Of a stretch of DNA of 64,000 nucleotides, positions 16,565 to 64,000 are shown piece by piece. A model generated the notes under the pieces. The model was not told where the DNA came from. It searched no databases and saw only the letters and a list, made by a program, of their open reading frames with translations. Each line of letters begins with the position of its first letter. Positions within the stretch are counted from its first letter, which is position 1. Source of the DNA: Culturomica sp. (GTDB lineage Bacteria > Bacteroidota > Bacteroidia > Bacteroidales > Marinifilaceae); contig JAISHE010000065.1 in the NCBI GenBank assembly GCA_031262745.1, positions 1-64,000 on the forward strand, written 5' to 3'. A program made the translations under genes and the position numbers.

Positions 16565-16654
16565 AGCTTTATATATCCGACTGTAATTTAGGGTAATTTG
16601 AGCACAAAACGAATAAAATTTAAACAACCTTTTAAATCATTTATGGAAAAATTG

Positions 16655-16662
16655 TACTTTTG
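16655..16662 (+). promoter_or_regulatory. -7 box very close to the ftsB/divIC start
   Basis: TACTTTTG matches TANNTTTG. Only five bases separate it from the ATG at 16668, so the predicted transcript would be leaderless or nearly so. Confidence 0.45.
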
Positions 16663-16667
16663 CTGAT

Positions 16668-16979
16668 ATGCTTGGCGATAAAAAATATTCTTATCGGGAC
16701 TTTTTAAAAAAATTCTACAATAAATACTTCCTTGTTGGGTTGATATTCCTTGTATGGTTGGTGTTTCTTGATGAGCAAAGTTTCATCGTTCAGAGACAGT
16801 TGAAAAGAAAAATAACTGCTCTTGAAAAACAGAAAGACTATTACAAGGAGAAAAGTGAAGAAGATAAGAGGAAAATTGACGAGCTGACAAACAATAAAGA
16901 AACTCTTGAAAAATTTGCACGTGAGCAATACCTTATGAAAAATAAAAATGAGGATATTTTTATAATTGTAGACGAATAA
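16668..16979 (+). CDS. Septum formation initiator family protein (FtsB/DivIC-like)
   Basis: A 103-residue single-pass membrane protein. A short basic cytoplasmic tail (1-20) is followed by a membrane helix (about 21-37, FLVGLIFLVWLVFL) and a periplasmic coiled coil (about 42-85) rich in Lys/Glu with heptad hydrophobics. The end, FAREQYLMKNKNEDIFII, is the conserved C-terminal block of the DivIC/FtsB family, which bridges FtsL and FtsQ in the divisome. It is first in a run with ruvX and def, 4 bp from the next start. Confidence 0.9.
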   Translation: MLGDKKYSYRDFLKKFYNKYFLVGLIFLVWLVFLDEQSFIVQRQLKRKITALEKQKDYYKEKSEEDKRKIDELTNNKETLEKFAREQYLMKNKNEDIFIIVDE

Positions 16980-16983
16980 CTAA

Positions 16984-17415
16984 TTGGGAAGAATTTTAGC
17001 CATAGATTACGGTAAAAAACGAGTGGGAATTGCAACAACCGACAATTGTAGGATTATTGCAACGGCTTTGACAACAGTATGTTCGCATGAAGTGTTAGAT
17101 TTTATTGTCGGTTACACTGCCGGAGAAAAGGTTGATTTGATAGTTGTAGGTTACCCTAAGACCATGCAAAACGAAGATTCGGAAAGTATGAAATACATTA
17201 AACCTTTTGTTGTGGGATTGAAACGAAAATTTCCTAATATACCGGTTGAAATGTATGACGAAAGATTCACATCCGTTATGGCTCACAAAGCAATGATCGA
17301 AGGAGGTTTCAAAAAGAAAATACGTGAAGACAAATCGAAGATAGACGCTATGAGTGCCGCAATTATACTTAACTCATTTCTTGACAGTAGAATTTATAAA
17401 GAAAAATATATTTGA
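16984..17415 (+). CDS. ruvX: Putative pre-16S rRNA nuclease / Holliday junction resolvase-like YqgF (RuvX)
   Basis: A 143-residue RNase H-fold protein. GRILAIDYGKKRVGIA at the N-terminus carries the first catalytic Asp, VVGYPK the second strand, YDERFTS the catalytic Glu, and SKIDAMSAAIIL the last acidic residue. The family trims the 5' end of 16S rRNA and is also proposed to resolve Holliday junctions. The start is TTG at 16984. No ATG or GTG in frame would give the conserved N-terminus, since a stop lies just upstream. It is 4 bp after the ftsB/divIC stop, and its own stop falls inside the TTGAATATG at the def start. Confidence 0.93.
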   Translation: MGRILAIDYGKKRVGIATTDNCRIIATALTTVCSHEVLDFIVGYTAGEKVDLIVVGYPKTMQNEDSESMKYIKPFVVGLKRKFPNIPVEMYDERFTSVMAHKAMIEGGFKKKIREDKSKIDAMSAAIILNSFLDSRIYKEKYI

Positions 17416-17417
17416 AT

Positions 17418-17972
17418 ATGCTTTTACCTATATATGTGTACGGACATCCGATCTTGAGAAAAAAATCAGAAGACATACCGGAAGATTATCCGAATTTAGA
17501 CGAATTCTTGAAAAACTTATGGCACACTATGGAAGTTGCCGACGGTGTGGGACTTGCCGCACCGCAAGTGGGACGTAATATTCGCATTTTTGTTGTGGAC
17601 GGTACCGGTTTTTCAGATCAACATCCGGAAGTTGCCGACTTTCGCAAGGTTTTTATAAATGCTCACATCGTGGAACGTTCCGACGAATTGGTCAATCGTA
17701 GCGAAGGTTGTTTAAGTGTACCCGGCATACACGAATATGTGAAACGTCCGGACAAAATACGCATCATCTACGAAGATGAAAACCGTATTAAGCACGATAA
17801 AGAGTTTGACGGAATAAAAGCGTGGATAATCCAGCACGAGTATGACCATTTGGAAGGTATCGTTTTCACCGACCACCTCTCACCTCTCCGTAAACGACTA
17901 CTGCAAAGCAAACTTAATGCAATCAGTCGCGGAAAATTCAAGTCCGAATATAAAGTAGTATTACCCAAATAA
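17418..17972 (+). CDS. def: Peptide deformylase
   Basis: Removes the formyl group from N-terminal formylmethionine of new proteins; a cytoplasmic metalloenzyme (usually Fe2+). All three family motifs are present: GVGLAAPQ (about 48-55), EGCLSVPG with the metal-binding Cys (about 104-111), and QHEYDHLEG with the two metal His and the catalytic Glu (about 148-156). ATG at 17418 is used; the TTG at 17412 lies across the ruvX stop. Third gene of the ftsB/divIC-ruvX-def unit. 184 residues, normal length. Confidence 0.96.
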   Translation: MLLPIYVYGHPILRKKSEDIPEDYPNLDEFLKNLWHTMEVADGVGLAAPQVGRNIRIFVVDGTGFSDQHPEVADFRKVFINAHIVERSDELVNRSEGCLSVPGIHEYVKRPDKIRIIYEDENRIKHDKEFDGIKAWIIQHEYDHLEGIVFTDHLSPLRKRLLQSKLNAISRGKFKSEYKVVLPK

Positions 17973-18012
17973 CTCGTAATTTGTAATTAATAATTCGTAA
18001 TTAATAATACCC

Positions 18013-19014
18013 ATGGCATTCAATCTTAGAAACAGACATTTCCTGAAATTACTTGATTTCACCCCCGAAGAAATAAAATATTTGTTGAACCTTTCTGCCG
18101 ACTTGAAAAAGGCAAAATACGCAGGCACGGAACAAGCCCGCTTGAGAGGTAAAAACATAGCACTTATATTTGAAAAAGATTCCACCCGCACCCGTTGCGC
18201 ATTTGAAACGGCTGCTCATGATCAGGGTGCCAACATAACATATCTCGGTCCCTCAGGTTCTCAAATCGGTAAGAAAGAATCGATGAAAGACACGGCAAGA
18301 GTTTTGGGACGCATGTTTGACGGCATTGAATATCGCGGTTTCGGTCAGTCGATTGTAGAAGAATTGGCACGTTATGCCGGAGTACCGGTGTGGAACGGAT
18401 TGACAAATGAATATCATCCCACTCAGATACTTGCGGATTTTCTCACTATGATGGAACATTCCGACAAACCGTTGAACAAAGTAACATTTGCCTATCTCGG
18501 AGATGCACGCTTCAATATGGGTAACTCGCTTATGGTGGGTGGTGTGAAAATGGGAATGGACGTGCGCATTGTCGCACCTGCAAGTCTACAACCGGACAAG
18601 TCGTTGGTTGACACTTGTCGGGAAATAGCCGCAAAAACGGGTGCCGTGCTTACGATTACCGACAACGTTGCAGCAGGCGTTAAAGGTTGTGATTTCCTGT
18701 ACACCGATGTGTGGGTATCAATGGGAGAACCGCAGGAAGTTTGGAAAGAGCGAATAGAAATACTTTTACCTTATCAAGTGAACAAAAAAACTATGGAACT
18801 CACCGGCAATTCAAAATGCAAATTTATGCACTGTCTACCGGCTTTCCATAACCTTGAAACGGCAGTGGGACGTGATGTTCACAAACAGTTCGGATTGGAT
18901 GCGATTGAGGTAACGGAAGAAGTGTTCGAATCTCCGAACTCTATCGTATTCGATGAAGCGGAAAATCGCCTCCATACAATTAAAGCAGTTATGGTAGCAA
19001 CACTTGGGGATTAA
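18013..19014 (+). CDS. Ornithine carbamoyltransferase (ArgF/ArcB type)
   Basis: Transfers carbamoyl from carbamoyl phosphate to ornithine to give citrulline, or the reverse in arginine breakdown. The carbamoyl phosphate motif STRTRCAFE, the HPTQ block and the ornithine-binding Cys motif HCLPAFHN are all intact over 333 residues. The sequence resembles the classical ornithine enzyme of Proteobacteria and Firmicutes. Many Bacteroidales instead make arginine with an N-succinyl- or N-acetylornithine carbamoyltransferase, which lacks HCLP. A catabolic (ArcB) role is therefore possible, but no arcA or arcC is nearby. Single gene; its TAA stop forms the loop of its own terminator. Confidence 0.93.
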
Positions 19015-19032
19015 ATCTCCAAGTGTATTTTT
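19000..19032 (+). terminator. Intrinsic terminator containing the stop codon of the carbamoyltransferase gene
   Basis: A 12-bp stem (19000-19011 with 19015-19026, one G-T wobble) encloses a 3-base loop that is exactly the TAA stop, followed by ATTTTT. The end of the gene is thus also its terminator. Confidence 0.85.
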
Positions 19033-19366
19033 AAAACTTCTTTAAAGCCTCGTCCAAAGTGGGATAAAGTTCCAGAATTTTATCAAGATGAAGAAGGTCA
19101 AAGATCTTCATATTACTTTTTGATATATTGCATATAGCGATGCGTGAATTATGTTGTGCCGCTGTGTTTTGAAGAGAAATCAGGCAGCCTATACCGCTAC
19201 TGTCAATGAAATCAACATTTTCAAGATTGAATATAAGATTGGTCTTGTCGTCGGACAAAACAGGTTTCAACTCAGCTTTTACGTCTTCGCTTATTAATAA
19301 AGTTAGTCTTGATGGAGTGTCAAACTTACCGATTTTAACATTCCCTTGTTGAGATATTTGGATCAT
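19031..19366 (-). CDS. STAS-domain anti-sigma factor antagonist
   Basis: A 111-residue single-domain STAS protein. The conserved block NVDFIDSSGIGCLISLQ holds the Ser that anti-sigma kinases phosphorylate in SpoIIAA/RsbV proteins, here near residue 57-58. Such proteins free a sigma factor or control a PP2C/HATPase switch. No partner kinase or phosphatase gene is in the window, so its target is unknown. It converges with the carbamoyltransferase gene and ends inside that gene's terminator region. Confidence 0.88.
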   Translation of the reverse strand: MIQISQQGNVKIGKFDTPSRLTLLISEDVKAELKPVLSDDKTNLIFNLENVDFIDSSGIGCLISLQNTAAQHNSRIAICNISKSNMKIFDLLHLDKILELYPTLDEALKKF

Positions 19367-19510
19367 ACGGATTTAAATAAAATTTGCTCTAAAATTAATA
19401 CTTATTTTTAATGTTTAACTAACTTCTACGGATAACTTTTACCAAAGTTAGAGTTTTTACGAAAAATGAAGATTTTTTTTTAAAGCCTAAACTAATTGAG
19501 GTAATATTTC

Positions 19511-19518
19511 TACCTTTG
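19511..19518 (+). promoter_or_regulatory. -7 box upstream of gcvT
   Basis: TACCTTTG matches TANNTTTG. It lies in the 230-bp gap between the divergent STAS and gcvT genes and would give a leader of about 70 bases. I saw no glycine riboswitch fold in that leader. The -33 box is weak. Confidence 0.5.
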
Positions 19519-19596
19519 TCTAAGTATGTCAAGGCATAATTCATGTCTTTATGACGTTAAGTTAAATACAATTATAAAATTAAGTGATCTTACATA

Positions 19597-20694
19597 ATGA
19601 AAACAACGCCTTTTACGCATTTTCATGAAAGTTTAGGAGCCAGAATGGCACCGTTTGCCGGCTACAATATGCCGATAGAATACACAGGAATTAAGGACGA
19701 ACACCTTGTTGTGAGGGAAAAAGTCGGAGTGTTCGACGTTTCTCACATGGGGGAATTCTGGATTAAAGGATCTAAAGCATTTCAACTTGTTCAGCAACTT
19801 ACAAGCAACGACGTGGCAACTTTAACCGACGGTAAAGTTCAATACACCACCTTCACCAACAACGAAGGTGGTGTTGTGGATGATTTGTTGGTGTATCGTT
19901 TCGGAGCGGAGAAATATCTTTTGGTTGTGAATGCCGCCAACATTGAAAAAGACTGGGCTTGGGTTACGGAACACGGGGAAGAATTAGGAATGCAAATCGG
20001 TAGAGACATGGAAAACACTTCCGATGCAATTTGCCAACTTGCCGTGCAGGGACCGCTTGCTCTTAAAGCTATGCAGAAACTAACATCGGCAACTGTTACC
20101 GATATGGAATATTATACCTTTAAAGAAATACCTTTTGCAGGAATTGATAAGGTTATATTCTCAACAACGGGCTATACGGGTTCCGGCGGTTGTGAAATTT
20201 ATGCCTATAATGCCGATGCGGAAAAATTATGGAATGCCGTGTTTGAGGCAGGTAAAGAGTTCGGAATACAACCTATCGGGCTTGGTGCACGCGACACTTT
20301 GCGATTGGAAGCCGGTTTTTGCCTCTACGGTCATGAATTAAATGACACCACTTCGCCGATTGAAGCCGGTTTGGGATGGATTACAAAGTTTGTAGACGGT
20401 AACAACTTTACAAACCGTGCATATCATGAAAAGCTGAAAATCGAAGGTGCGCCGCATTATTTAAAAGGTTTCGTGGTGGAAGATCGAGGAATTGCTCGTC
20501 AAGGTTATCCGATAGAAGATGCTGCCGGCAACGTGATAGGAGAAGTTTGCTCCGGTACGGTTTCGCCTTTAACGGGAAAATCAATCGGTACAGGCTACGT
20601 GAAAACCGGTTACCATAAGTTGGGTACCGAAATATACATACGTGTTCGTAACAAGGCTTTGAAAGCAATCATCACAAAAATGCCGTTTTTTTAG
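19597..20694 (+). CDS. gcvT: Aminomethyltransferase, glycine cleavage system T protein
   Basis: Takes the aminomethyl group from H protein and, with tetrahydrofolate, releases ammonia and makes methylene-THF. Typical blocks are [16 protein letters not shown] at the N-terminus (about 11-26), [15 protein letters not shown] with the catalytic Asp region, the folate-binding middle part ([12 protein letters not shown]), and [20 protein letters not shown] (about 226-245). 365 residues, normal. The serine genes serC and serA follow on the same strand, so this stretch links serine synthesis with one-carbon units. gcvH and gcvP are not in the window. Confidence 0.97.
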
Positions 20695-38175: not shown

Positions 38176-38844
38176 ATGACTGGTTATAATTTTATTCCGG
38201 GCGCAGATGCCCAATTCGATCCTTGACAAAGCGTTTTATTAGACGCAGTTCAAAAAAGTGCGGAAATGTGGTCTATCCCGATTGATGCCTTAACGGCAAC
38301 AACGGAACTTCAAACGAAGTGGGAAGCCGCATATTCCATTGTAACAGACCCGGCAACGAAGACATCTTCTGCCGTGCATTTAAAAAATGCTACACGCAAA
38401 GAATATGAAACGCAATTGCGCATGTTTATTAAATCCTACATCACTTACAATCCGAAAGTGAGTGATGAAGATAAGATAAACATGGGTTTGCCGGTTCATA
38501 AGACGACGCGAACTCCTGTGCCCGTGCCTACGACTGTTCCGAATGTATCCGGAATAGACCGTAACGCTATCCGCCGTATCACTATTTCTTTCATCGATTC
38601 GGGCAGCGACCATCGTGCAAAACCCGCCGGTGTGCAAGGAGCAGTGATAAAATGGATCGTTAGCGACACGCCTCCCGTCGGCATTGATGTTTTCACAAAC
38701 TCTTTGCTGGACACGAGGTCGCCTATAACGCTGGAATTCACCGACCAACAGCGTGGCAAAACCGTTTATTTCATACTCGCTTGGCAAAATACCAGAGGCG
38801 AAATGGGAAACTTTGGTGAAATACAAAGCAGTATAGTGCCGTAA
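38176..38844 (+). pseudogene. Conserved Bacteroidales protein of unknown function, paralogue 2, with in-frame TGA
   Basis: Second copy of the gene at the window start. ATG at 38176 begins MTGYNFIPGADAQFDP, and codon 17 (38224-38226) is TGA where paralogue 1 has TGG (WQS). After that the frame is open and closely conserved to the TAA at 38842-38844, with the same TTRTPVPVP, SGSDHRAKPAGVQGA and WQNTRGEMG blocks. Translation could restart at ATG 38266 (MWSIP), giving 192 residues without the conserved N-terminus. A recent nonsense mutation is the simplest reading; a sequencing error or readthrough is possible. Other genes here use TGA as a normal stop. Confidence 0.8.
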
Positions 38845-39141: not shown

Positions 39142-39816
39142 ATGAACAAACAACCTCTCAAAATATCAAATCTAATCACCCTTGCCAAGCAATTTTGCGA
39201 GCAGGAATCTCAAACACCCAACAGCGAACTGTTCGGTGTAACGGACGGCAAAGCTGTAGGCACATACATTGAGCATAAGTTTAAGGATTTTGTGCTTGAA
39301 AATTATGATACGGGAATCGGCAGTTCGGCGAGCGGAATTGATTTGCCTGCGCCGGAAATCAATACGGACATAAAAGTTACTTCAATTGATAAACCGCAAT
39401 CTTCGTGCCCGTTCAAAAATGCACAGCAAAAGATTTTCGGTTTGGGTTACAATTTGTTGGTTTTTGTGTATGACAAAAAAGACGATGAAAAAACAAAAAC
39501 GGCGTTGCTCAATTTTGTAAGCTGCTCGTTTATTGAAAAAGAGCGTACTGCCGATTATCAAACAACAACAGCATTGTTGCAAATGATTGAAAATAATGCC
39601 AATGCAGAAGATATTTTTGCCTATTTGAACGACCGCAACATTCCCGCCGATGAAGTTACGCTGATGAATATGGCAGAACAAATTTTGCAAAATCCACCGA
39701 AAATCGGTTATTTGACAATCTCAAATGCTTTGCAATGGCGGTTGCAGTATGGCAGAATTGTTGGGCTGAAAGAGGAAGTTGATGGGATTGAGAGTATTGT
39801 GGATTATGTGAAATAA
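39142..39816 (+). CDS. Type II restriction endonuclease, PD-(D/E)xK type (system 1)
   Basis: A 224-residue protein that I read as a restriction endonuclease. VGTYIEHKFKDFV (39-51) is followed by GSSASGIDLP and EINTDIKVTS, giving Asp67 and Asp76-x-Lys78 of a PD-(D/E)xK active site, preceded by a helix with Glu44. The specificity is unknown. It opens a four-gene run with gaps of 14, 5 and 9 bp. Its base composition is closer to the last gene (methylase at 41825) than to the two very AT-rich genes between. I therefore pair it with that methylase, though this is an inference. Confidence 0.7.
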   Translation: MNKQPLKISNLITLAKQFCEQESQTPNSELFGVTDGKAVGTYIEHKFKDFVLENYDTGIGSSASGIDLPAPEINTDIKVTSIDKPQSSCPFKNAQQKIFGLGYNLLVFVYDKKDDEKTKTALLNFVSCSFIEKERTADYQTTTALLQMIENNANAEDIFAYLNDRNIPADEVTLMNMAEQILQNPPKIGYLTISNALQWRLQYGRIVGLKEEVDGIESIVDYVK

Positions 39817-39830
39817 AAAAATGATATAAT

Positions 39831-40697
39831 ATGGAAAAGTTTGATTATCAAAATCATAAGATATTAAAGGGAGATGCGTTAGAGATTTTATCAACCGAAA
39901 TATTAAACAATTCAGTTGATTTAATTTTTGTTGATCCGCCTTACAATATAGGCAAAAATTTTAACGGACATAAAGATAAATGGGCTACGGATGAAGATTA
40001 TTTGAATTGGTGTTATAAATGGATTGATTTGTGTATCAATAAATTAAAGCCAAATGGGAGCATGTATATTATGACTTCCACACAATTTATGCCATTCTTT
40101 GATATTTTTATTCGTAAAAGAATGTCAATACTTTCTAGATTGGTGTGGTATTATGACAGTTCAGGGGTGCAGGCAAAAAAATATTATGGTTCGATGTATG
40201 AACCTATTTTGTTTTGCGTTAAAAATCCAGATAATTACACCTTTAATGCAGATGATATTTTAGTTGAAGCAAAAACGGGAGCAAAAAGAAAACTGATTGA
40301 TTACAGAAAAAATCCTCCACAAGTTTATAATTCTAAAAAAGTTCCTGGGAATGTATGGGAATTTCCCCGTGTTCGCTATAGAATGGATGAATATGAAAAT
40401 CACCCTACGCAAAAACCAATTGCACTTTTAGAACGCATAATTAAAGCAAGTTCTAATGTTGGTGATATTATATTAGATCCATTTTCAGGTACATTTACAA
40501 CAAGTTATGTCGCCAAACAATTTGGAAGAAAATCTATTGGGATTGAATTACAAGAAGATTATGTAAAAATTGGATTAAGACGCTTACAATTAGCCAAAGA
40601 ATACAAAGGAGAAAAGTTGGAAAAAGAAATCCGCACTTTTGAAACAAATAAAATTCAGTTTCAAAATGCTACATTGTTTAACATATTTGAAATATAA
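39831..40697 (+). CDS. Site-specific DNA N-methyltransferase, beta class (system 2)
   Basis: A 288-residue methyltransferase. Motif IV DPPYN (residues 35-39) comes first and the SAM-binding motif I DPFSGTFTTSYVA near residue 215, the order of beta-class amino-methyltransferases (N6-adenine or N4-cytosine). HPTQKP and FGRKSIGIEL around motif I are typical of the class (HinfI/MboII/YhdJ-like). It should protect the site cut by the next gene's product, 5 bp downstream. Strongly AT-rich codon use compared with neighbours suggests separate arrival. Confidence 0.9.
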   Translation: MEKFDYQNHKILKGDALEILSTEILNNSVDLIFVDPPYNIGKNFNGHKDKWATDEDYLNWCYKWIDLCINKLKPNGSMYIMTSTQFMPFFDIFIRKRMSILSRLVWYYDSSGVQAKKYYGSMYEPILFCVKNPDNYTFNADDILVEAKTGAKRKLIDYRKNPPQVYNSKKVPGNVWEFPRVRYRMDEYENHPTQKPIALLERIIKASSNVGDIILDPFSGTFTTSYVAKQFGRKSIGIELQEDYVKIGLRRLQLAKEYKGEKLEKEIRTFETNKIQFQNATLFNIFEI

Positions 40698-40702
40698 GAC
40701 TA

Positions 40703-41815
40703 ATGAAACATCTGTTTACAAATAATATAGAACAAATTTTGAAACAGAATTTTGGCAAATATTCTGAGAAAATTTTTGAAAAATCTTTACTTATTCAATA
40801 TCTGAATGAAAAAACTCGCTCTGCAAACCAAGGTTCAAAAGCGAGAGGAAGTTTTGCAAATCTATACGCAATTTATGTAATTGTAGAAGATTATATTGTT
40901 AATGGTTACAACAAATATGGCGACTATTCTGCTTATGAAGGTGCTTTGTTCAGTAATCTTTTTTCTCGTCAAAGAGAATTGCCTTTTGGTAGCAAGTTAC
41001 AAAATCACGCTTTGAATAATCGCATGAACTCTGAATTTCAAAAATATTTTCCTAATTCTGAATATATTCCAATTTTGCGTAATCTCGAAACAAACCGTTA
41101 TTGGTTCAATGAAAATTTATTAAAAATAATAATTGGCAAAAAGATATTTAATATCGCAGAAACTGTCATTGCAATAATTGATGAATATATTCATACAAAG
41201 CAAGATGCTTTTCTGCGTTTTGTAAAATCGTGCGAAGAATTGCAGAAAATAGGAACACAAACTCCACGAAAAGTAGAAAAATTTATTGTTGAGTTGCTTG
41301 CGCCAAATGTTGATGCTCGTTTATTTGAGATTGTAAGTTATTCAATCTTAAAATATTATTATCATGATCAACAAATTTATTGGGGATTTGAAATCAACAA
41401 ACTCAACAAAGAAAATTTGACACTTTACAAAACAGGACGAACGAATGCCAATGACGGCGGAATTGATTTTGTAATGAAACCGTTGGGCAGATTTTTTCAA
41501 GTTACCGAAACATTGGATTTTAAAAAGTATTTTCTTGACATTGATAAAATCCAAAAATATCCTATTTCATTCATTATCAAATCTGAAGATTCTGTTGAAA
41601 ATATATTGCAGAAGATTAAAGAGACAGCCTCAAAGAGTTATTCTGTAAAAGCAATAATTGATAAATATATGGCTTGTATTGAAGAAATTATCAATATTCC
41701 AAAGCTAATTTATCGTTTTGAACAAACTGTAAAGATAGGTTATTTGAACAAAATACTTGATGAAATTATTTTGCAGAGTAAGGTTGAATTTAATTATGAA
41801 GAAGAGGAGGATTAA
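40703..41815 (+). CDS. Probable type II restriction endonuclease (system 2)
   Basis: A 370-residue protein placed between two methylases. Near residues 242-270 it reads GRTNANDGGIDFVM and then RFFQVTET, a PD-(D/E)xK-like pattern in which the Lys position is unclear (QVTE), as in some restriction enzymes with altered sites. The N-terminal half is helical and probably gives recognition or dimer contacts. A SxANQGSKARG motif lies near residue 40. AT-rich composition matches the preceding methylase, which I take as its partner. The function is inferred from context more than from motifs. Confidence 0.65.
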   Translation: MKHLFTNNIEQILKQNFGKYSEKIFEKSLLIQYLNEKTRSANQGSKARGSFANLYAIYVIVEDYIVNGYNKYGDYSAYEGALFSNLFSRQRELPFGSKLQNHALNNRMNSEFQKYFPNSEYIPILRNLETNRYWFNENLLKIIIGKKIFNIAETVIAIIDEYIHTKQDAFLRFVKSCEELQKIGTQTPRKVEKFIVELLAPNVDARLFEIVSYSILKYYYHDQQIYWGFEINKLNKENLTLYKTGRTNANDGGIDFVMKPLGRFFQVTETLDFKKYFLDIDKIQKYPISFIIKSEDSVENILQKIKETASKSYSVKAIIDKYMACIEEIINIPKLIYRFEQTVKIGYLNKILDEIILQSKVEFNYEEEED

Positions 41816-41824
41816 AATATAATA

Positions 41825-43450
41825 ATGACTTTCCCCACCACACATACCACTCCAAAAATCTTTTCTTTTTTCAAAAAAGAAAAATTCCTTTCATTCAAAA
41901 CGGCAAACGCTGGTTTGAATGAAAAAACAGGCATTGTAAACTTTTTTGAGAGCGAGGAAGATTTTGTACAATTACAAAATTCGCTAAAAATCAACCAAAA
42001 TATGGTTGCTGAAAGTCCGGCAGAATACGGAGATTATCAAACCAATAAACAACTTGCAAAAGCAGTTTGCGAAAATCTGAAAAAGAAAAATATAAACCCA
42101 AAAATTCTGATTGAGCCGACTTGCGGAAAAGGGAATTTTATTTTGTCGGCTATCGAAACTTTTGAGAATTTGGAACAGATTTTCGGCATTGAAATTCAGG
42201 AAAAATATGTGTGGCAACTAAAATTTTCGCTGCTCGAATATTTTTTGGAAAACCCCGAAGCAAACAAACCCGAAATTCATTTGTACCATTGCAGCGTTTT
42301 TGATTTTGATTTCGAGCACATTACATCGCAAATCGGCGGGCGTGAAATGTTGGTGTTGGGAAATCCGCCTTGGGTAACCAATGCAACGCTTTCAACGCTG
42401 AACTCAAAGAACTTGCCGACAAAACGAAATTTCAAAAACGCCAAAGGAATTGATGCCATTACAGGTAAGGGAAATTTTGATATAGGCGAAAGCATTTCGT
42501 TGAAAATGCTGGATTTATTCTCAAAAGAAAACGGACATTTTGCTTTTTTGATAAAAAATTCCGTGATAAAAAATATCATTTACGAGCAAAAGCGCAACAA
42601 TTATCCGATTGCAAACATTGAAAAACAGACAATTAATGCGCAGAAAGAGTTTAACGCCGCTGTTGATGCAAGTTTGTTTGTTTGCAAATTCAATTCTACG
42701 CCCGAATTTACGGCAAAAGAGATTGATTTTTACACCGCAACGCCGCGTGTAACTTTGGGTTGGGTAAACAATAAATTTGCTTCCGACACCGAGAAATACA
42801 AAAAATATCAGCATTTGGACGGCGTTTGTCCTTACGAGTGGCGGCAGGGGATTAAGCACGATTGCGCCAAAATTATGGAGTTGGAGCGCATTGACGGCGG
42901 TTTTAGAAATGGGCTTGGCGAAGAATTTGAATTGGAAGAAGATTTGGTTTACGGCATTTTGAAAAGTTCCGATTTGAAACAGGAAATGGTTGATACGCCG
43001 CGAAAATACACCATTGTTACGCAAAAACGGATAGGGCAGGAAACTTTGCCTATTTTGGAAAAATTGCCAAAAACAAACGCATATCTACAACAGCATAAAG
43101 AGTATTTTTTGCAAAGAAAATCAAGCATTTACAATGGGAAGCCACTGTATTCGATTTTCGGCGTAGGCGATTATTCGTTTAAACCGTACAAAGTAGCCAT
43201 TTCCGGACTTTACAAGCAAACCCGATTTACGCTTGTAAAACCAAACGGCACGGTTTTATTGCTTGACGATACTTGTTACTTCATAGGATTTGACACACTC
43301 GAAGAAGCAGAATCCATTCAGGCAGAATTGAATAAACCTGAAATGCAGGAATTTATTAATTCATTTATGTTTACCGATGCCAAACGAGCAATCACAAAAG
43401 ATTTGCTGATGAGGGTAGGTATTGGAAAGAATGCACTTGTATTGTTTTAG
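41825..43450 (+). CDS. N6-adenine DNA methyltransferase, TaqI-like (system 1)
   Basis: A 541-residue methyltransferase. Motif I EPTCGKGNFILSAI (about 97-110) precedes motif IV GNPPWVTN (about 178-185), so the order is motif I then IV, and the NPPW box marks N6-adenine methylation. The C-terminal part (about 300-541) would be the target recognition domain, with YSFKPYKVAISGLYK resembling TaqI-like C-terminal domains. The first 50 residues are unlike the family and the true start may be the ATG at 42001 (MVAESPAEYGDYQTN). It is likely the partner of the endonuclease at 39142, separated from it by system 2. A terminator lies at 43676. Confidence 0.88.
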   Translation: MTFPTTHTTPKIFSFFKKEKFLSFKTANAGLNEKTGIVNFFESEEDFVQLQNSLKINQNMVAESPAEYGDYQTNKQLAKAVCENLKKKNINPKILIEPTCGKGNFILSAIETFENLEQIFGIEIQEKYVWQLKFSLLEYFLENPEANKPEIHLYHCSVFDFDFEHITSQIGGREMLVLGNPPWVTNATLSTLNSKNLPTKRNFKNAKGIDAITGKGNFDIGESISLKMLDLFSKENGHFAFLIKNSVIKNIIYEQKRNNYPIANIEKQTINAQKEFNAAVDASLFVCKFNSTPEFTAKEIDFYTATPRVTLGWVNNKFASDTEKYKKYQHLDGVCPYEWRQGIKHDCAKIMELERIDGGFRNGLGEEFELEEDLVYGILKSSDLKQEMVDTPRKYTIVTQKRIGQETLPILEKLPKTNAYLQQHKEYFLQRKSSIYNGKPLYSIFGVGDYSFKPYKVAISGLYKQTRFTLVKPNGTVLLLDDTCYFIGFDTLEEAESIQAELNKPEMQEFINSFMFTDAKRAITKDLLMRVGIGKNALVLF

Positions 43451-55303: not shown

Positions 55304-55403
55304 AATTTTGCACTTTTGAAAATACATATTATCTTTGTCGAAAACATACGGCTATGGATCAGCTTAAAACAATCTTTCAAATCCTCGTCAATCGAACCGA
55401 GCT
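55304..55403. repeat. 100-bp target-site duplication, left copy
   Basis: Identical over 100 bp to 57087-57186 and directly abutting the IS left end. It holds a complete promoter (TTTG 55307-55310, TATCTTTG 55330-55337, 19 bp apart) and the ATG (55354) with the first 16-17 codons of the ATPase gene at 57137. Here the coding sequence is cut off by the IS and runs into a stop shortly after. The promoter points into the IS, toward the transposase. Confidence 0.95.
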
Positions 55404-55470
55404 CCTGACTTCGACACTTTTAATTTGACTATTTTGTAACATACATAATATTAACTGTATACAAATTTTG

Positions 55471-55494
55471 GGACACCAATTTGGGTGTCCCAAT
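55471..55494 (+). promoter_or_regulatory. Hairpin in the transposase leader
   Basis: TGGGACACC (55471-55479) pairs with GGTGTCCCA (55486-55494), 25 bp before the transposase ATG. Such hairpins near IS ends commonly hide the start from transcripts entering from outside, which would matter here because a host promoter sits just upstream. Confidence 0.55.
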
Positions 55495-55518
55495 GAAAAA
55501 ATGGGCTAAATTTGCCCC

Positions 55519-57063
55519 ATGTTTATACGAAAGAAGAAAAATCCCAGCGGAGTAGTTAGTGTTCAAGTAATCGACAAAAGTCGCAACTCATACAAAGTTT
55601 TCAAAACGATTGGCAGCAGTTCCGATGTGGCAGAGATAGACAAGCTTTTTTCGCAAGGTCAGAAATGGCTTGCTGCCCATTGCGGCAATCGCGATATGTT
55701 TCAAGAAGCCGACCGGCAACGTGAAGAAAAGCAGATTACGGAGTATTTTCTGAACAATGTTGAAAATATACTGCTCAACGGCACACAGCTTATCTTGAAT
55801 GAGGTATTCAAAGTTGTTGGTTTCGATGCCATAGAAGATGATATTTTAAAACATTTGGTTGTAGCCCGTCTGTGTCAACCGAGTAGTAAAGCAGGTACAG
55901 TTGATTACTTGAAGTCCTACTTTGATGAAGATGTAGAACTTCATAAGATTTACCGCTATTTAGACCGTTTACACAACACTTTACAGGATAAGATACAACA
56001 AATCAGCGTAGAGCATACCCGCAAGATTTTAGGCGGACATATCGGGCTTGTTTTTTATGATGTAACCACCCTTTATTTTGAGACTGATCATAGCGATGAG
56101 TTACGCGAAAGAGGGTTTTCTAAAGACGGCAAGCATGCTCAGCCACAAGTGATACTCGGTTTGTTAGTTAGTCGTGATGGCTATCCGTTGTCGTATTCCA
56201 TTTTTAACGGTTCGCAATACGAGGGTAGAACGATGCTACCTATCGTCGAAGATTTTGTCAAGCGTTTCAATTTGGACGATTTTGTCGTTGTAGCCGATTC
56301 GGGACTGATGAACAAAACCAATATCGCCCTTTTAGAATCCTCCAACTACAAATATATTATCGGAGCAAGAATCAAAAACGAAACCCAAGAAATCAAACGG
56401 TGGATACTCTCATTGGATAAGACAGAAGGGAGTTTTTACGAATTGTGTAAACAGCCTGAATCCCGTCTGATTATCGGTTACTCCGAAAAAAGGGCAAAGA
56501 AAGACAAATACAATAGGGAGAAAGGCGTAAGACGCTTACAAACAGCCTACAAGTCAGGAACGATAACTAAAGAGAACGTCAATAAACGTGGATACAACAA
56601 GTTTTTAGAAATATCCGACAATGTAAAGGTTACAATAAACCGACAGAAAATCAGGGAAGATGAACAGTGGGATGGTCTAAAAGGTTACCTGACCAATACC
56701 AAACTGAATGCAAAACAGGTTTGTGAGCAATACAATGGTTTATGGGTTATAGAACGAGCTTACCGAGTTACAAAGGGCACGCTCGAAATGCGACCCATGT
56801 TCCACTTTACACAAAAACGCATTGAAGCGCACGTCTGCATTTGTTTTGTAGCATACAAAGTTTACAAGGAGTTAGAGCGAATTTTGAAACAAAACAATAT
56901 CAACCTGAGTGTGGACAAAGTATTGAATATTGCCAAAACCGTAACCACACTGAAAATCAAACTACCCGAAAGTGGTGAAACCATGACAAAGACGATGCTA
57001 CTGACAGCAAAGCACAAGGATATCGAGCCTCTGTTCGACAAAAATTTTTGGAAAATGTTTTAG
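55519..57063 (+). CDS. IS1634-family DDE transposase
   Basis: A 514-residue transposase with an N-terminal DNA-binding half (about 1-165) and a DDE catalytic core. The first Asp lies in GLVFYDVTTLYFE (about residue 180), the second in FVVVADSGLMNK (about 258) and the Glu in YNGLWVIERAYRVTKGTLEMRPMFH (about 415), the YxxLWxIE motif of the IS1634 group. It ends four codons before the right inverted repeat. Complete and without frameshift, so probably active. Confidence 0.96.
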   Translation: MFIRKKKNPSGVVSVQVIDKSRNSYKVFKTIGSSSDVAEIDKLFSQGQKWLAAHCGNRDMFQEADRQREEKQITEYFLNNVENILLNGTQLILNEVFKVVGFDAIEDDILKHLVVARLCQPSSKAGTVDYLKSYFDEDVELHKIYRYLDRLHNTLQDKIQQISVEHTRKILGGHIGLVFYDVTTLYFETDHSDELRERGFSKDGKHAQPQVILGLLVSRDGYPLSYSIFNGSQYEGRTMLPIVEDFVKRFNLDDFVVVADSGLMNKTNIALLESSNYKYIIGARIKNETQEIKRWILSLDKTEGSFYELCKQPESRLIIGYSEKRAKKDKYNREKGVRRLQTAYKSGTITKENVNKRGYNKFLEISDNVKVTINRQKIREDEQWDGLKGYLTNTKLNAKQVCEQYNGLWVIERAYRVTKGTLEMRPMFHFTQKRIEAHVCICFVAYKVYKELERILKQNNINLSVDKVLNIAKTVTTLKIKLPESGETMTKTMLLTAKHKDIEPLFDKNFWKMF

Positions 57064-57086
57064 GGTGTCCCTGTGTCGAAGTCAGG

Positions 57087-57186
57087 AATTTTGCACTTTT
57101 GAAAATACATATTATCTTTGTCGAAAACATACGGCTATGGATCAGCTTAAAACAATCTTTCAAATCCTCGTCAATCGAACCGAGCT
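57087..57186. repeat. 100-bp target-site duplication, right copy
   Basis: Second copy of 55304-55403. Here the start codon and first codons continue into the full ATPase gene, so the insertion left a complete promoter and gene on this side. Confidence 0.95.
57090..57120 (+). promoter_or_regulatory. Promoter of the DUF4143 ATPase gene, copied by the IS insertion
   Basis: TTTG (57090-57093) and TATCTTTG (57113-57120), 19 bp apart, are a near-perfect Bacteroidota promoter 16 bp before the ATG. It starts only 3 bp inside the duplication. Confidence 0.75.
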
Positions 57187-58753: not shown

Positions 58754-58920
58754 ATTTGTGAATTGCTTCAAAATTTCATCAGGCTTTATTGTTACAAGTT
58801 ACTTTTCATTTCAGAGACTTCGGTAAAAAGTTGAGAAATTCACATGTCTTTTATCATTGCTTGGGCGTTAACAATGGATATCTCTACACTTCTCTAAATA
58901 GAATATTAACTGATCATATC

Positions 58921-59027
58921 ATTTCCTGACTTCATCAATGCGTCACCCAATTCATTTTTCACTCTCATCAACCGACTTGAACAGAGGTTATATAGCATGG
59001 TGTCTATCGGTGATGAAGTCAGGAAAT
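58921..59027. repeat. Miniature inverted-repeat element related to the IS1634 ends
   Basis: ATTTCCTGACTTCATCA (58921-58937) and its exact inverse (59011-59027) bound a 73-bp centre with no coding capacity. The outer CCTGACTTC equals the first nine bases of the inverted repeats of the IS at 55404-57086. It could be a MITE mobilised by that transposase, or a large regulatory palindrome upstream of the sigma-like gene. Confidence 0.6.
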
Positions 59028-59065
59028 AATTTTGTCGTTTTTCAGAAGATTTTCACAATATTTAA

Positions 59066-59073
59066 TAGCTTTG
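59066..59073 (+). promoter_or_regulatory. -7 box of the sigma/C39/dynamin operon
   Basis: TAGCTTTG matches TANNTTTG, 38 bp before the ATG at 59111. No good -33 box at 17-23 bp, so activation by another factor is possible. Confidence 0.45.
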
Positions 59074-59110
59074 TACGCTGTTAGATATACTAAATGGTGG
59101 TTGCCTAAAA

Positions 59111-59680
59111 ATGAACTACTCCGATAGGGAATTGATCGACGGGATTCTTGCCAATGACGAAGAAATTATTCGGATTTTCTTCTTTGAATGCTGTGCTCCG
59201 ATGTTTCGTTACATCGTTGCCAAAGTATTCAGGAACAGAGAGGAGCAGGATGAGTTGATCAACGAGTTGTATATTTATCTGCACGAAAATGACTGGTACA
59301 AATTGCGGCAGTTCAATTTTCGAAGCAAACTAACCACTTATGTATCTGTGGTTGCAATGCGTTTTTTTATGAGAATGCGGAATCGGATGATAGAATTTGA
59401 CCTCGATTCTGCTCTATATCTTCAAAACGAGGATACAACCTATGATATACAGGATGCAAAGATGGATTTGAATACGATATTGTCGAGCCTGCCGAACGAG
59501 CGTTATCGCAAGGTGATTTATGCGCTTTACATTGAGGATGTCGAGCCGGAAATGTTGGCACAGGAGTTTGATATAACGATTGCAAACCTCTATAACATCA
59601 AGCGACGGGCACTGACACAATTGATAAACCACGGTAAAACAATAGAAAAACTAACTAAAATCGAGCAATATGGCAAATGA
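59111..59680 (+). CDS. Sigma-70-family (ECF-like) protein
   Basis: A 189-residue protein with the layout of a two-domain sigma factor. Region 2 (about 18-95) reads FFFECCAPMFRYIVAKVF, then FNFRSKLTTYVSVVAMRFFMRMRNR, where ECF factors have the FRSWLxxIARN block. Region 4 (about 118-180) is a helix-turn-helix with LSSLPNERYRKVIYALYIED and LAQEFDITIANLYNIKRRALTQL. The linker is long and acidic. No anti-sigma gene is next to it. It heads the operon with the C39-like and dynamin genes, overlapping the next gene by 11 bp, so it probably controls this locus. The target promoter is unknown. Confidence 0.82.
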   Translation: MNYSDRELIDGILANDEEIIRIFFFECCAPMFRYIVAKVFRNREEQDELINELYIYLHENDWYKLRQFNFRSKLTTYVSVVAMRFFMRMRNRMIEFDLDSALYLQNEDTTYDIQDAKMDLNTILSSLPNERYRKVIYALYIEDVEPEMLAQEFDITIANLYNIKRRALTQLINHGKTIEKLTKIEQYGK

Positions 59681-60734
59681 AATCACAGGGGTTATCGGAG
59701 AGAACCCTATTCAGCAACAGTACAGCGACACTTGCGCTATCAAATCGCAACAGTTAATCATGCAGGAGTTTGGAATTGACGTATCGGAGACACAACTTGT
59801 CGAGATTGCAGCCGAAGCTGGAATCTATCAATCCGGAGAGGGAACTCCCATGGGTTATACCGGGGTATTGTTGGATCAAGTCGGAATACCGGTATCCCAA
59901 ATGGAATCGGCCAATATCTTTGACCTTACCAACGAATTAGCGCAAGGCCACAAAGTGATTATCGGCGTGGATTCAGGCGAATTATGGGCAAAAAGCAGCG
60001 GTCTTGGAGAGCAATTCAAGGAGTGGTGGGACGATCTTTGGGGGAACAATGAGGCCGATCATGCTTTGATTGTTTCCAGCATAGACAATCAAAATCCCGA
60101 TGATCCACAGGTGGTACTGACCGATCCCGGTTCAGGTGAAATTCGGCACTATCCGTTGGATGAATTTATGGATGCATGGAAAGATTCAAACTGTTTTATG
60201 GTTTCGACCGATGTTGCTCCAGCTGAATTTACAGCTATGCAGATACAAAACAACCAACCTATTTCGCATTTAGCCGATATCGGCGGGGTTAGCTATAACG
60301 ATTTTCAGTATTTTCATGACATCTCGCAATCCCTACCCCCTATGGATATTTGGGATTATACTGCCAATCCCTTCCATCCGATACATTCGTTGATGGATAC
60401 CTATACCTTGTGTGGAGACAACGTCATCGGGTTTAGCGACTTTGGCGCGTTTGACTTTTATCAACACGTTGATATCATGCAATTATCTAACTATCTGACA
60501 GAAACGTCTTATAATAATTACAACTTTCTGTCTCAATCCTTTCCCGATACCATGTCATCCATGCAGGCCGATTTAGCCGCACTACCTCCCGATGACCCTG
60601 CACTCGTCCATGACTTTTTCGAGCATTATGATGTCGGCGACAACACGGAAATATCCGATTTTACCCAATCACAAGCACACGCCATGGAGCTGTGCGATCT
60701 ATTCGGAATTGAACACGACTTTTTTCTAATCTAA
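59670..60734 (+). CDS. C39-like cysteine-peptidase-fold protein (novel context)
   Basis: A 354-residue protein without signal peptide or membrane helix. Residues 13-155 look like a papain-like C39 peptidase: QQQYSDTCAIKSQQLIMQEFG with Gln16/17 and Cys22, ADHALIVSSID with His131, and VVLTDPGSGE with Asp152, a complete Gln-Cys-His-Asp set. The C-terminal half (about 190-354) is acidic, rich in Asp, Tyr, Phe and Pro, and has no known domain. C39 peptidases normally cut double-Gly leaders inside ABC exporters; no ABC domain is present, so the role must differ. It overlaps the sigma gene and is 7 bp before the first dynamin, so it belongs to the same unit. Confidence 0.75.
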   Translation: MANEITGVIGENPIQQQYSDTCAIKSQQLIMQEFGIDVSETQLVEIAAEAGIYQSGEGTPMGYTGVLLDQVGIPVSQMESANIFDLTNELAQGHKVIIGVDSGELWAKSSGLGEQFKEWWDDLWGNNEADHALIVSSIDNQNPDDPQVVLTDPGSGEIRHYPLDEFMDAWKDSNCFMVSTDVAPAEFTAMQIQNNQPISHLADIGGVSYNDFQYFHDISQSLPPMDIWDYTANPFHPIHSLMDTYTLCGDNVIGFSDFGAFDFYQHVDIMQLSNYLTETSYNNYNFLSQSFPDTMSSMQADLAALPPDDPALVHDFFEHYDVGDNTEISDFTQSQAHAMELCDLFGIEHDFFLI

Positions 60735-60741
60735 TACTACT

Positions 60742-62517
60742 ATGACCCAAAATATGATTTCCATAATGGACAATATCGTCCTTTCTCTCAAGCCTATTTT
60801 GTCTAAAAAGAATCGGGAAAAAGAATTCGCAGCGATCGAAGAACATTTGCAAAGCATCAAAAACCGAGAAACCGGCATACTAATTTGCGGAGAATTTAAA
60901 CGAGGTAAATCATCGTTCATCAACGCATTTTTGGAACAAGAACTTTGTCCGGTCGATACAAATATTGCCACGGCGGCAGTGTCAATAATTCGATATGGCG
61001 AAACCCCCAAAATTGTCCGTTGGTATGGTGATTTCAGTGACCCAAAATCGGAAACATTCAATTCGCTGGAAGAAATATCCCGTTATGTCGAAGCTCAATC
61101 CAAAGATAGCGACAACACGATTTGGCTGGACATCGAAGTTCCCAACGTAAAACTAAAGAATGGCATTGTGCTGATTGATACTCCTGGGGTTGGCGGTCTC
61201 GATCCGCGTCACGCATTTTTGACAAACTATTTTATGCCGAAAGCGGACATCGTACTTTTTGTTACCGACAAAGACTCGCCTCTTTCGGCATCGGAGATTG
61301 ATTTCTATAAAGATAAAATAGCTTCAAAAGCTCGTCAAAATATCATATTGGTCAATAAATCCGACCTGTTTAAATCGGAAGAAGAGCAATCGAAATGGAT
61401 TGTCGATGTACAGGATAAATGTGGAACACCCGAAAAAACGCCAGAAGCAATACCTATTTCTGCCAAATTGAAATCAGAATACCTGAAAAGTAAAGATGCC
61501 GAAGACTTGAATGAATCGAATTTCGAAGCACTCGAAAAAGAGATTGAGAAGTTGACAGAAACTTTCCGAAAGGGGTTATTATTGCAACTGAAAGAGCAGA
61601 TTTTGAGTGTATTGGAAGAAATGCGTGGTTTATTGACAATACAGCTCGAACAGATCAAAGAGCCCGATCCTCAGTTAATCGCGAGACTGGAGGGCGAGAT
61701 GAGATCCATCGAGGAACAAAAGCAAAAATTAGAGAACCCCAATTCGGAATATCGGATCAAAATCAATTCCATCATCACCCAGTCGAGAAATAATGTCGAC
61801 TTGCGTTTGCGGGAAGGGAGTATTATGTTGTCGGCCGATAAATTGAGAGAATTGGCTGATTCTTCTCAGGCACGGGAAAATCCTGACTGGTTGCAGAGGC
61901 AGATGAACAACGCTATCGGTATCTTGGCTTCTGAGTTAGATACAATGATAGATGATGCCTTTGCTCAGGTAATGCTTCTGGTCGGAAGTAATACAAATTC
62001 TCTCTCGACATCTCGTTTCGAGCATACAATCAATGTGAATCTCACGCCAACAGAACGATCATTTGGAACGGTGGCGTGCGACACAGCTCGACATGCACTA
62101 TCCGCATTTGGGCTCGGTATGGCAGTCTCTTTCTTAACAGGCGGAGTAGCATTGCCTCTGTTGGTGGCGGGTGGTTTTTTATTCGGGACTGCTCGAGATG
62201 CTTCAAGAAATAGACGCGCCAATGATATTATCGCTAAACTAAATCCACAAATTCAAATTGCGACCCAGCACTTAAGCAGTTATATTGCCTCTCGTTTTGC
62301 GACATTTAATCAGGAATTGATTCATGTTTTGCAGGAAGGGATGCAAAAAATGATCGAGAATAAAACGACGGTTATCAATTCCCTCACCAAACTGAAAGTT
62401 GAAAGTGCACAACAGAAACAACTCCGCGCCAAATTGCTGAATGAAGAATTAAAGCCGATAGAGAATCTGATGACCACCACTCGGTTGTATCTCAGCAACC
62501 CTCTCGAAAAGTCATAA
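60742..62517 (+). CDS. Dynamin-like GTPase 1
   Basis: A 591-residue bacterial dynamin-like protein. The GTPase motifs are intact: P-loop GEFKRGKS (50-57), G3 DTPGVGG (146-152) and G4 NKSD (205-208). Long helical stretches (about 255-440 and 500-590) form the stalk. Between them is a hydrophobic segment at about 450-485 (SAFGLGMAVSFLTGGVALPLLVAGG), suited to membrane insertion as the paddle. Such proteins bind and reshape membranes; in bacteria some protect from phage (DynA, Eleos/LeoBC). It is 3 bp from a second dynamin gene. Confidence 0.9.
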   Translation: MTQNMISIMDNIVLSLKPILSKKNREKEFAAIEEHLQSIKNRETGILICGEFKRGKSSFINAFLEQELCPVDTNIATAAVSIIRYGETPKIVRWYGDFSDPKSETFNSLEEISRYVEAQSKDSDNTIWLDIEVPNVKLKNGIVLIDTPGVGGLDPRHAFLTNYFMPKADIVLFVTDKDSPLSASEIDFYKDKIASKARQNIILVNKSDLFKSEEEQSKWIVDVQDKCGTPEKTPEAIPISAKLKSEYLKSKDAEDLNESNFEALEKEIEKLTETFRKGLLLQLKEQILSVLEEMRGLLTIQLEQIKEPDPQLIARLEGEMRSIEEQKQKLENPNSEYRIKINSIITQSRNNVDLRLREGSIMLSADKLRELADSSQARENPDWLQRQMNNAIGILASELDTMIDDAFAQVMLLVGSNTNSLSTSRFEHTINVNLTPTERSFGTVACDTARHALSAFGLGMAVSFLTGGVALPLLVAGGFLFGTARDASRNRRANDIIAKLNPQIQIATQHLSSYIASRFATFNQELIHVLQEGMQKMIENKTTVINSLTKLKVESAQQKQLRAKLLNEELKPIENLMTTTRLYLSNPLEKS

Positions 62518-62520
62518 ACT

Positions 62521-64000
62521 ATGCCTGAAGGATTCAACATTACCGACAAAATCGAAGATGCGATTGCCGATATCCGAAAAGAGATTTCCGGATATCCTTC
62601 TTTAATCGCGTTGGATCAACAGTTTGCCACCATTCCCGACAAGCTACACGAGCCGATGCAATTGGCCATTGTTGGGAAGATTAGCTCCTCCAAATCGACG
62701 TTGGTCAATGCAATTTTGGGAGAGGCGGAAGTGGTGCGTACCGGAGCGATGGAAGAGACATGGAATGTCAGTTGGTTGAAATACGGCAGTCCTGATGCGC
62801 CTATTATCGTTCATTATAAAGACGCTGACAGGGCTTCCGAGAAAGTGGATCGCAACGAATGGGCTAATTGGGCTAATCGCCACCGAGATGGTAACGAACA
62901 GTTGAAAAACGCCATCTCATGGATCGAAGTCACCTATCCACATCCGATTCTACAACAGATTAACATCATTGACACCCCTGGGCTGGATTCGTTTGTGGGT
63001 ATCGACTCTCAAAATACCATTGATTTTTTGAGGAAGGTCAGACCGGATGCTATTGTGATGCTTTTTTCCAAAAACATCAATGAAAATACGCTGGATGAAA
63101 TCCGAAATTTCAGACAGGAGGTCGGTGCTGGGTTTTCGCCGATCAATGCCATCGGCGTGCTTTCTAAAATTGATGATTTCTGGAACTCTGATTCCGATCA
63201 AGAACCGATTGACGAGGGAAATCGAATTATCGAAAGCCTGATGTCGCAGGAAATTGTAAAAAACACATTGTTCAAAATTTACCCGCTATCGGCTTGGGTT
63301 GCTCTCTCTGCCTACCGAATAAATGAGGATGACCTATCTACCTTCGATCAGTTGCAGAAACTTCCGCAAGAGGTTTTAAATAGGCTTTTCAAATCGGCGA
63401 AACGATTTGTTACCGACTATCCCGATGTACCTGTTGCGGGTTCGCGAAGGGCGGAACTCTCTGGCATCTATGGTCGCTATGGCATTTGGCTAATTTTGGA
63501 ACATCTAAAAAACGGTGGATCCGCTACAATTCTTGACCTTCATAAGCTGTTATTGCGAAAAAGTGGCTTCGACCGTTTTTTGGAAGTCCTGCAAAATCAC
63601 TTCGTGCAACAGGCTGCTACAATCAAAGTACATAGCCTGATCGTTTGGCTTTCGGCAGAAATACGCAAGACCACTAATGATTACCCCGCTAATGCCGAAG
63701 AGCGATTTGTGCTTGGAAAAATCATTCGGATTATGGATGATTTAGTACGAATGGTTAAATTGCAGTCGAATGTAATAGACTTCGCCAAGGAGTATTACGA
63801 AGGTCGTCTTGATCTCGAACCGGAAGAATTTGAGGAATTGCGGCGGGTGAATGGAGAATTTGGATTTTCCTGTATCGAACGTACTGGTCTGGATGCCAAT
63901 GCTACTCCGGAGGAGATGATCGAGATGTGCTCACAACGGATTCGTTTCTGGCGAATAGAACTCAATACGACAGGGGTTAGTTTCCCGTCGCTTGCACGTT
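62521..64000 (+). CDS. Dynamin-like GTPase 2 (3' end beyond window)
   Basis: The frame is open from ATG 62521 to the end of the window (493 codons). The GTPase motifs are recognisable but altered: P-loop GKISSSKST (52-60), with Ser57 where the second Gly is expected, G3 DTPGLDSF (151-158), and G4 SKID (215-218) in place of NKxD. These changes may lower GTP affinity or specificity. The remainder is helical. It lies 3 bp after dynamin 1, so the two probably act as a heteromeric pair, like other tandem bacterial dynamins. More genes of the unit may follow outside the window. Confidence 0.85.
   Translation, partial: MPEGFNITDKIEDAIADIRKEISGYPSLIALDQQFATIPDKLHEPMQLAIVGKISSSKSTLVNAILGEAEVVRTGAMEETWNVSWLKYGSPDAPIIVHYKDADRASEKVDRNEWANWANRHRDGNEQLKNAISWIEVTYPHPILQQINIIDTPGLDSFVGIDSQNTIDFLRKVRPDAIVMLFSKNINENTLDEIRNFRQEVGAGFSPINAIGVLSKIDDFWNSDSDQEPIDEGNRIIESLMSQEIVKNTLFKIYPLSAWVALSAYRINEDDLSTFDQLQKLPQEVLNRLFKSAKRFVTDYPDVPVAGSRRAELSGIYGRYGIWLILEHLKNGGSATILDLHKLLLRKSGFDRFLEVLQNHFVQQAATIKVHSLIVWLSAEIRKTTNDYPANAEERFVLGKIIRIMDDLVRMVKLQSNVIDFAKEYYEGRLDLEPEEFEELRRVNGEFGFSCIERTGLDANATPEEMIEMCSQRIRFWRIELNTTGVSFPSLAR

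Follow-up and report, generated by a model that had tools for sequence, protein, structure and literature searches.

At the end of a 64,000-nucleotide stretch of Culturomica sp. DNA (contig JAISHE010000065.1; hereafter the window) lie four genes for a sigma factor-like protein of the extracytoplasmic function (ECF) type, a C39/papain-fold cysteine protease-like protein and two dynamin-like GTPases, Dyn1 and Dyn2. We propose that this locus exemplifies a transferable system for membrane-damage response or conflict, with the C39-type protein, an Hsp70-type ATPase and a heterotypic pair of dynamins as its core, and give this reading a probability of roughly 0.55; the damage would perhaps come from phages. 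The gene set, which in the window is under an apparent sigma/anti-sigma switch, is common to at least six phyla and apparently undescribed; the combination of C39, dynamin, Hsp70 and sigma genes had no description in the literature searched, which covered few subscription journals and no preprints.

The window is positions 1–64000 of an 87.4-kb contig, whose coordinates it shares, and the operon could therefore be traced beyond 64000. The original prediction, made from the window sequence, had described four tightly packed genes. The packing is real (the sigma and C39 genes overlap by 11 bp, and gaps of 7 bp and 3 bp separate C39 from Dyn1 and Dyn1 from Dyn2), but the coordinates were too short. 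Extending the contig, as had been advised, added an Hsp70-type ATPase with an FHA domain and seven further genes, including an anti-sigma gene, a kinase, a phosphatase and an M48 protease that the four-gene composition had lacked (Table 1). In our judgement, made by gene spacing, the operon ends near 72560. The M48 gene is followed by an outer-membrane protein (OMP)-type gene, a WG-repeat protein and, after these, a TonB-receptor-like gene accompanied by genes of iron-uptake type.

A C39 profile run over 84,980 species genomes gave 74 further C39 loci, and their gene maps show a recurring core of C39, an Hsp70 domain and two dynamins, a long one that has a hydrophobic paddle and a short one that has none. 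The recurring arrangement places the long dynamin after C39 and then Hsp70 and the short dynamin, these last two in varying order. The core is found in Bacteroidota, Planctomycetota (loci L048 and L060), Verrucomicrobiota (L061, L066 and L067) and Pseudomonadota (Halochromatium, L044), and three dynamins are present in L027, L029, L031, L038 and L123. Bacillota were left out of the phylum count because L059, from a metagenome-assembled genome of that phylum, resembles a copy of L045, with equal gene sizes. A search independent of C39 gave the same picture: the short-dynamin profile found three full-length matches in 393 Bacteroidales genomes (647, 488 and 378 bits), each 2–7 kb from a C39 gene, while the remaining matches outside those three genomes, at 87 bits or less, were generic dynamins in genomes without C39. 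The occurrence is patchy: 6 of these 393 genomes have a C39 match above 200 bits, dynamin-linked in four of them. Plasmids carry the set as well. By tblastn, Anabaena plasmid pANA01 has Hsp70, C39 and two dynamins, and Rhodococcus plasmid pRWAY01 has a dynamin, a GTPase, Hsp70, C39 and sigma-70 in a single stretch; plasmids of Rhodococcus (Prescottella) equi also gave matches. Furthermore, the component trees of 33 loci are correlated, in part through shared species history (long and short dynamin, r = 0.95; Hsp70 and dynamin, 0.76; C39 and dynamin, 0.56–0.61), and none of 2000 permutations was as high. Of the proposed four-gene association, the link between C39 and the dynamins stands, across phyla and in mobile or patchy form; the sigma gene is an optional addition, adjacent in roughly one in four dynamin-linked loci, and the Hsp70-type ATPase, which belongs to the core, had been missed.

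The two dynamins are asymmetric. Dyn1 has an intact GxxxxGKS P-loop, NKSD as its G4 motif and a hydrophobic paddle segment near residues 458–476. Dyn2, as had been noted, departs at both motifs, with GKISSSKS in the P-loop and SKID as G4. The Ser in place of Gly before the P-loop Lys is found in 11/11 members of the window's short-dynamin cluster and not in cluster c3, so that it is a clade feature and does not mark a dead gene. In both clusters the paddle-type segment is confined to the long dynamin; where a locus has three dynamins, the second of them (c24) does carry such a segment. For Dyn1 the best PDB sequence match is IniA (6j72, E 4.9e-19). The AlphaFold model of the in-window part of Dyn2 (predicted local distance difference test score, pLDDT, 85.5) is closest to truncated mitofusin-1, a mitofusin-type dynamin, with BDLP also similar, and the best PDB match of the short-dynamin profile by sequence is entry 5owv, the CjDLP1/CjDLP2 pair, which is likewise heterotypic. 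To our knowledge that pair has no C39 or Hsp70 partner, a point on which no search was made.

The window C39 protein scores 16.6 bits against the Pfam C39 cut-off of 22 bits, just below it, and its relative in L130 scores above. Its AlphaFold model has a pLDDT mostly of 85–98 over residues 10–190, falling to 70–77 around 101–130 and poor beyond 190, and the best Foldseek matches are papain-like cysteine protease toxins, contact-dependent inhibition (CDI) toxins and CtaG. The papain-like fold thus comes with the full Gln-Cys-His-Asp set that had been predicted. Among dynamin-linked relatives with the aligned residue present, Q16 and C22 are kept in 43/43 and H131 and D152 in 44/44, one of the 44 having no residues at the first two positions; in relatives outside dynamin-linked loci, Cys, His and Asp are kept in 27/27. 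We take the window protein to be a probable active enzyme and a putative protease.

Taken alone, the window sigma protein is a weak assignment, with 15.4 bits for Sigma70_r4_2 against a cut-off of 25.7, but relatives in L018 (26.6 bits) and L031 (39.9 bits) pass that Sigma70 region 4 cut-off, and it is 36–43% identical to the C39-adjoining sigma genes of L012–L014. A sigma gene lies upstream of C39 in 11 of the 41 dynamin-linked loci with room for it and in 20 of 27 other C39 loci. Where it does, C39 nearly always bears an anti-sigma-like N-terminal extension of at least 65 residues: 28/29 sigma-adjacent loci have one against 4/40 without sigma (Fisher p 5.6e-14, with L070 and L071, in which the called start hides the overlap, placed manually among the sigma-adjacent loci). 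In L031 the extension exceeds the zf-HC2 cut-off, and in L018 it is a weak match to that family; most Bacteroidota extensions share a LAAYxDG-type motif and lack the zinc ligands. The single exception among the 29 is the window itself, where C39 is without the extension and the operon holds instead a separate 119-aa protein that matches the extension profile at 4e-11. In L024 the same gene content is rearranged, with the sigma gene and a stand-alone 133-aa protein first and C39 last; that protein matches the extension profile weakly (E 0.019). At L082:6464-7483, one 339-aa open reading frame (ORF) fuses sigma directly to the C39 domain.

A signalling module is swapped between loci, being either kinase, PP2C and FHA, or a DO-GTPase with a GAP1-like gene, or ThiF and JAB. 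In all four kinase/PP2C loci checked (L006, L015, L021 and L024) the Hsp70 protein carries the FHA domain, which is absent in the DO-GTPase loci L017 and L026 and in the ThiF/JAB locus L019. The DO-GTPase occurs in L034 and L026, and the GAP1-like gene that accompanies it is without Pfam confirmation. In L019 (Bacteroides nordii), a Prok-JAB/Big_2 protein and a ThiF protein follow the C39-dynamin-Hsp70 operon at 16249–19615, which suggests a ubiquitin-like module. Dynamin-free sister C39-sigma loci encode M48, TIR and RyR proteins; one such anti-sigma-C39 locus, L079:9731-18291, has M48, RyR-domain and TIR-domain proteins.

Known systems share parts of this arrangement. The iniBAC operon has the tandem dynamins IniA and IniC, induced by cell-wall drugs, and IniA performs GTP-dependent membrane fission in vitro (PMC6715688); Dyn1 resembles it most closely by sequence. 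Unlike the present system, iniBAC as described has IniB and is without C39, Hsp70, sigma, kinase or DO-GTPase (PMC6715688), and in the window operon no IniB was seen and the other genes are of other families. Eleos (LeoA/LeoBC) also has tandem dynamins. The PADLOC profile check that had been suggested gave full-length but weak matches, of 15–84 bits overall: Dyn1 reached 48.5 bits with LeoBC, and Dyn2 15.6 with LeoA and 15 with LeoBC, values that come with no system cut-off or unrelated-dynamin yardstick, and the relatives' dynamins reached up to 84. Such weak matches do not by themselves make the system Eleos. The LeoBC dynamin is split into two genes and neither dynamin is split here. In the parts available to us, the LeoABC description (PMC4159319) contains no C39, Hsp70, sigma/anti-sigma, kinase or phosphatase; as anticipated, peptidase and sigma partners appeared in no Eleos description within the same limits. 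GTPase-centric conflict systems (Kaur et al. 2020, PMC7159879) share the DO-GTPase with some relatives, and Hsp70, zinc-ribbon, kinase and PP2C themes are common to both, whereas dynamin, C39 and sigma never occur in the main text of that report; neither DO-GTPase nor GAP1 was found in the window operon by Pfam and gene maps.

How might such a system work? The long dynamin would bind membrane via its paddle, the short dynamin would regulate or bridge the dynamin assembly, and the Hsp70-type ATPase would load or disassemble it. Acting through the FHA domain of the Hsp70 protein, the kinase/PP2C pair might set a threshold. The protease would be the output or a switch, cutting a partner or an anti-sigma protein, and release of sigma would then boost operon expression. 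The likely purpose would be to survive or limit membrane damage by phage, antibiotics or competitors. Known dynamins of this kind cut membrane, as IniA does (PMC6715688), or delay phage lysis, as DynA does (PMC8844932). A bolder and rather speculative version is that a damage-reading dynamin pair is coupled, via the Hsp70-type ATPase and exchangeable modules, to a papain-fold protease that is also an anti-sigma release switch; damage would thereby meet a response and at the same time be signalled to transcription. The proposed system as a whole would give bacterial dynamins, about whose physiological triggers little is known, a protease, an Hsp70-type ATPase and sigma/anti-sigma control, and would tie the paired dynamins to modular, cross-phylum conflict systems. 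With predicted active sites and a small core, it is directly testable in laboratory strains of Bacteroides or Rhodococcus.

Several points weigh against the membrane-damage reading, in which function is predicted from gene content. Not every C39-fold enzyme is a protease; CtaG, which shares the fold, performs acyl-transfer-type chemistry. The table relating extension to sigma was made after the maps had been inspected, hand reassignment included, and species history accounts for part of the tree correlation. Neither an insertion nor an empty site could be demonstrated, the relatives G001, G015 and G026 being too poor in synteny. Most dynamin-linked loci, moreover, have no adjacent sigma gene, and sigma release therefore cannot be the sole function of C39. 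This bears on the idea that the anti-sigma/C39 pair serves mainly to switch transcription, in which C39 either cuts the anti-sigma protein or is held by it and the dynamins are one of several regulons. The overlapping sigma and C39 genes, the fused anti-sigma-like extension, the direct fusion in L082 and the C39-sigma loci with other cargo all speak for it, but most dynamin-linked loci have neither an adjacent sigma gene nor a long extension and still keep the C39 active site, and we consider it rather improbable. That the genes are chance neighbours beside an insertion sequence (IS) is hardly credible: an IS, an element resembling a miniature inverted-repeat transposable element (MITE) and a gene fragment do lie directly upstream, but the same combination recurs in many genomes of six phyla, and this linkage refutes it.

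Two further explanations are overlapping special cases of the membrane-damage reading. A dedicated anti-phage system, in which the dynamins sense or seal phage-made membrane damage and the protease acts as an effector of cell suicide or of delayed lysis, is a serious possibility at somewhat less than even odds. It would fit the patchy occurrence, the plasmid carriage, the tyrosine integrase upstream in L017, L026, L028 and L037, the TIR and RyR cargo of the sister loci and the DO-GTPase conflict-system genes of some loci (PMC7159879). Among 113 flanking ORFs, PADLOC and Pfam gave scattered matches to PARIS (AriA/AriB), MADS, PD-T4-6 and integrases, but these were pooled over loci and had no baseline, for which reason we claim no enrichment of defence genes; there is no consistent defence island. 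The typical defence-island setting originally proposed for the locus is itself weak, since the genes upstream of the operon are, by sequence starts, of housekeeping and arabinose/pectin (sugar) type, with one IS, and the nearest defence-type genes are a restriction-modification-like cluster 16 kb off. The M48, BACON and OMP accessories are of envelope type. C39 relatives were found in neither phage records nor viral contigs, which we regard as neutral. The other special case is an iniBAC-type envelope-stress response not directed at phages, with the dynamins repairing the inner membrane during cell-wall stress and sigma/anti-sigma, kinase/phosphatase and M48 acting in quality control. IniA as the closest PDB sequence to Dyn1, the drug-induced IniA/IniC tandem (PMC6715688) and the M48 and outer-membrane-type genes that belong to the operon or adjoin it favour this case; patchy distribution, plasmid carriage and the C39, Hsp70 and DO-GTPase genes, all outside iniBAC as described (PMC6715688), make it unlikely. 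A membrane-damage response or defence, along the lines first suggested, is the best reading; anti-phage activity and a defence-island setting are conjectural parts of it.

Table 1. Genes of the operon and the adjacent repeat element (window coordinates, continued on the contig)
Feature	Position	Strand	Basis or remark
MITE-like inverted-repeat element	58918-59030	.	directly upstream of sigma gene, 20-nt arms
ECF-like sigma factor, 189 aa	59111-59680	+	ORF, Sigma70_r4_2 below cut-off, relatives
C39/papain-fold cysteine protease-like protein, 354 aa	59670-60734	+	ORF, Pfam, alignment, AlphaFold/Foldseek
Long dynamin-like GTPase Dyn1, 591 aa	60742-62517	+	Dynamin_N 95.6 bits
Short dynamin-like GTPase Dyn2, 526 aa	62521-64101	+	Dynamin_N 44.9 bits; stop 101 bp beyond window
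Hsp70-type ATPase with C-terminal FHA domain	64112 (start approximate)-65524		past window
Zinc-ribbon/transmembrane/WG protein	65539-66192		past window
Ser/Thr kinase with zinc ribbons	66199-67332		past window
Zinc-ribbon/transmembrane protein	67335-67634		past window
Zinc-ribbon/transmembrane/BACON-repeat protein	67884-69380		past window
PP2C phosphatase with zinc ribbon	about 69770-70738		past window
Anti-sigma-like protein, 119 aa	70748-71107		past window
M48 protease	71091-72560		past window

The IS and the inverted-repeat element reported beside the locus are both there. The IS, of the DDE transposase type, lies at 55304–57186, with 15-bp perfect terminal inverted repeats (55403–55417/57073–57087). 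On either side of it is a copy of an exact 100-bp direct repeat, which has the look of a target duplication of unusual length; IS1634/IS1549 elements make unusually long target duplications. The AAA_14 gene after the IS may have retained its start inside the second 100-bp copy. The arms of the MITE-like element resemble the tips of this IS; a genome search found it as a single copy in its own genome, and it is probably outside the system.

Elsewhere in the window, the apparent restriction-modification cluster spans 39142–43450, where the ORF at 39831 contains a methylase motif of DPPYN type and the G+C content (0.30 at 40–42 kb) is lower than that of the rest. The ORFs at 78–656 and 38266–38844, both of 192 aa with similar N-termini (MW.IP.D...), are apparently paralogues.

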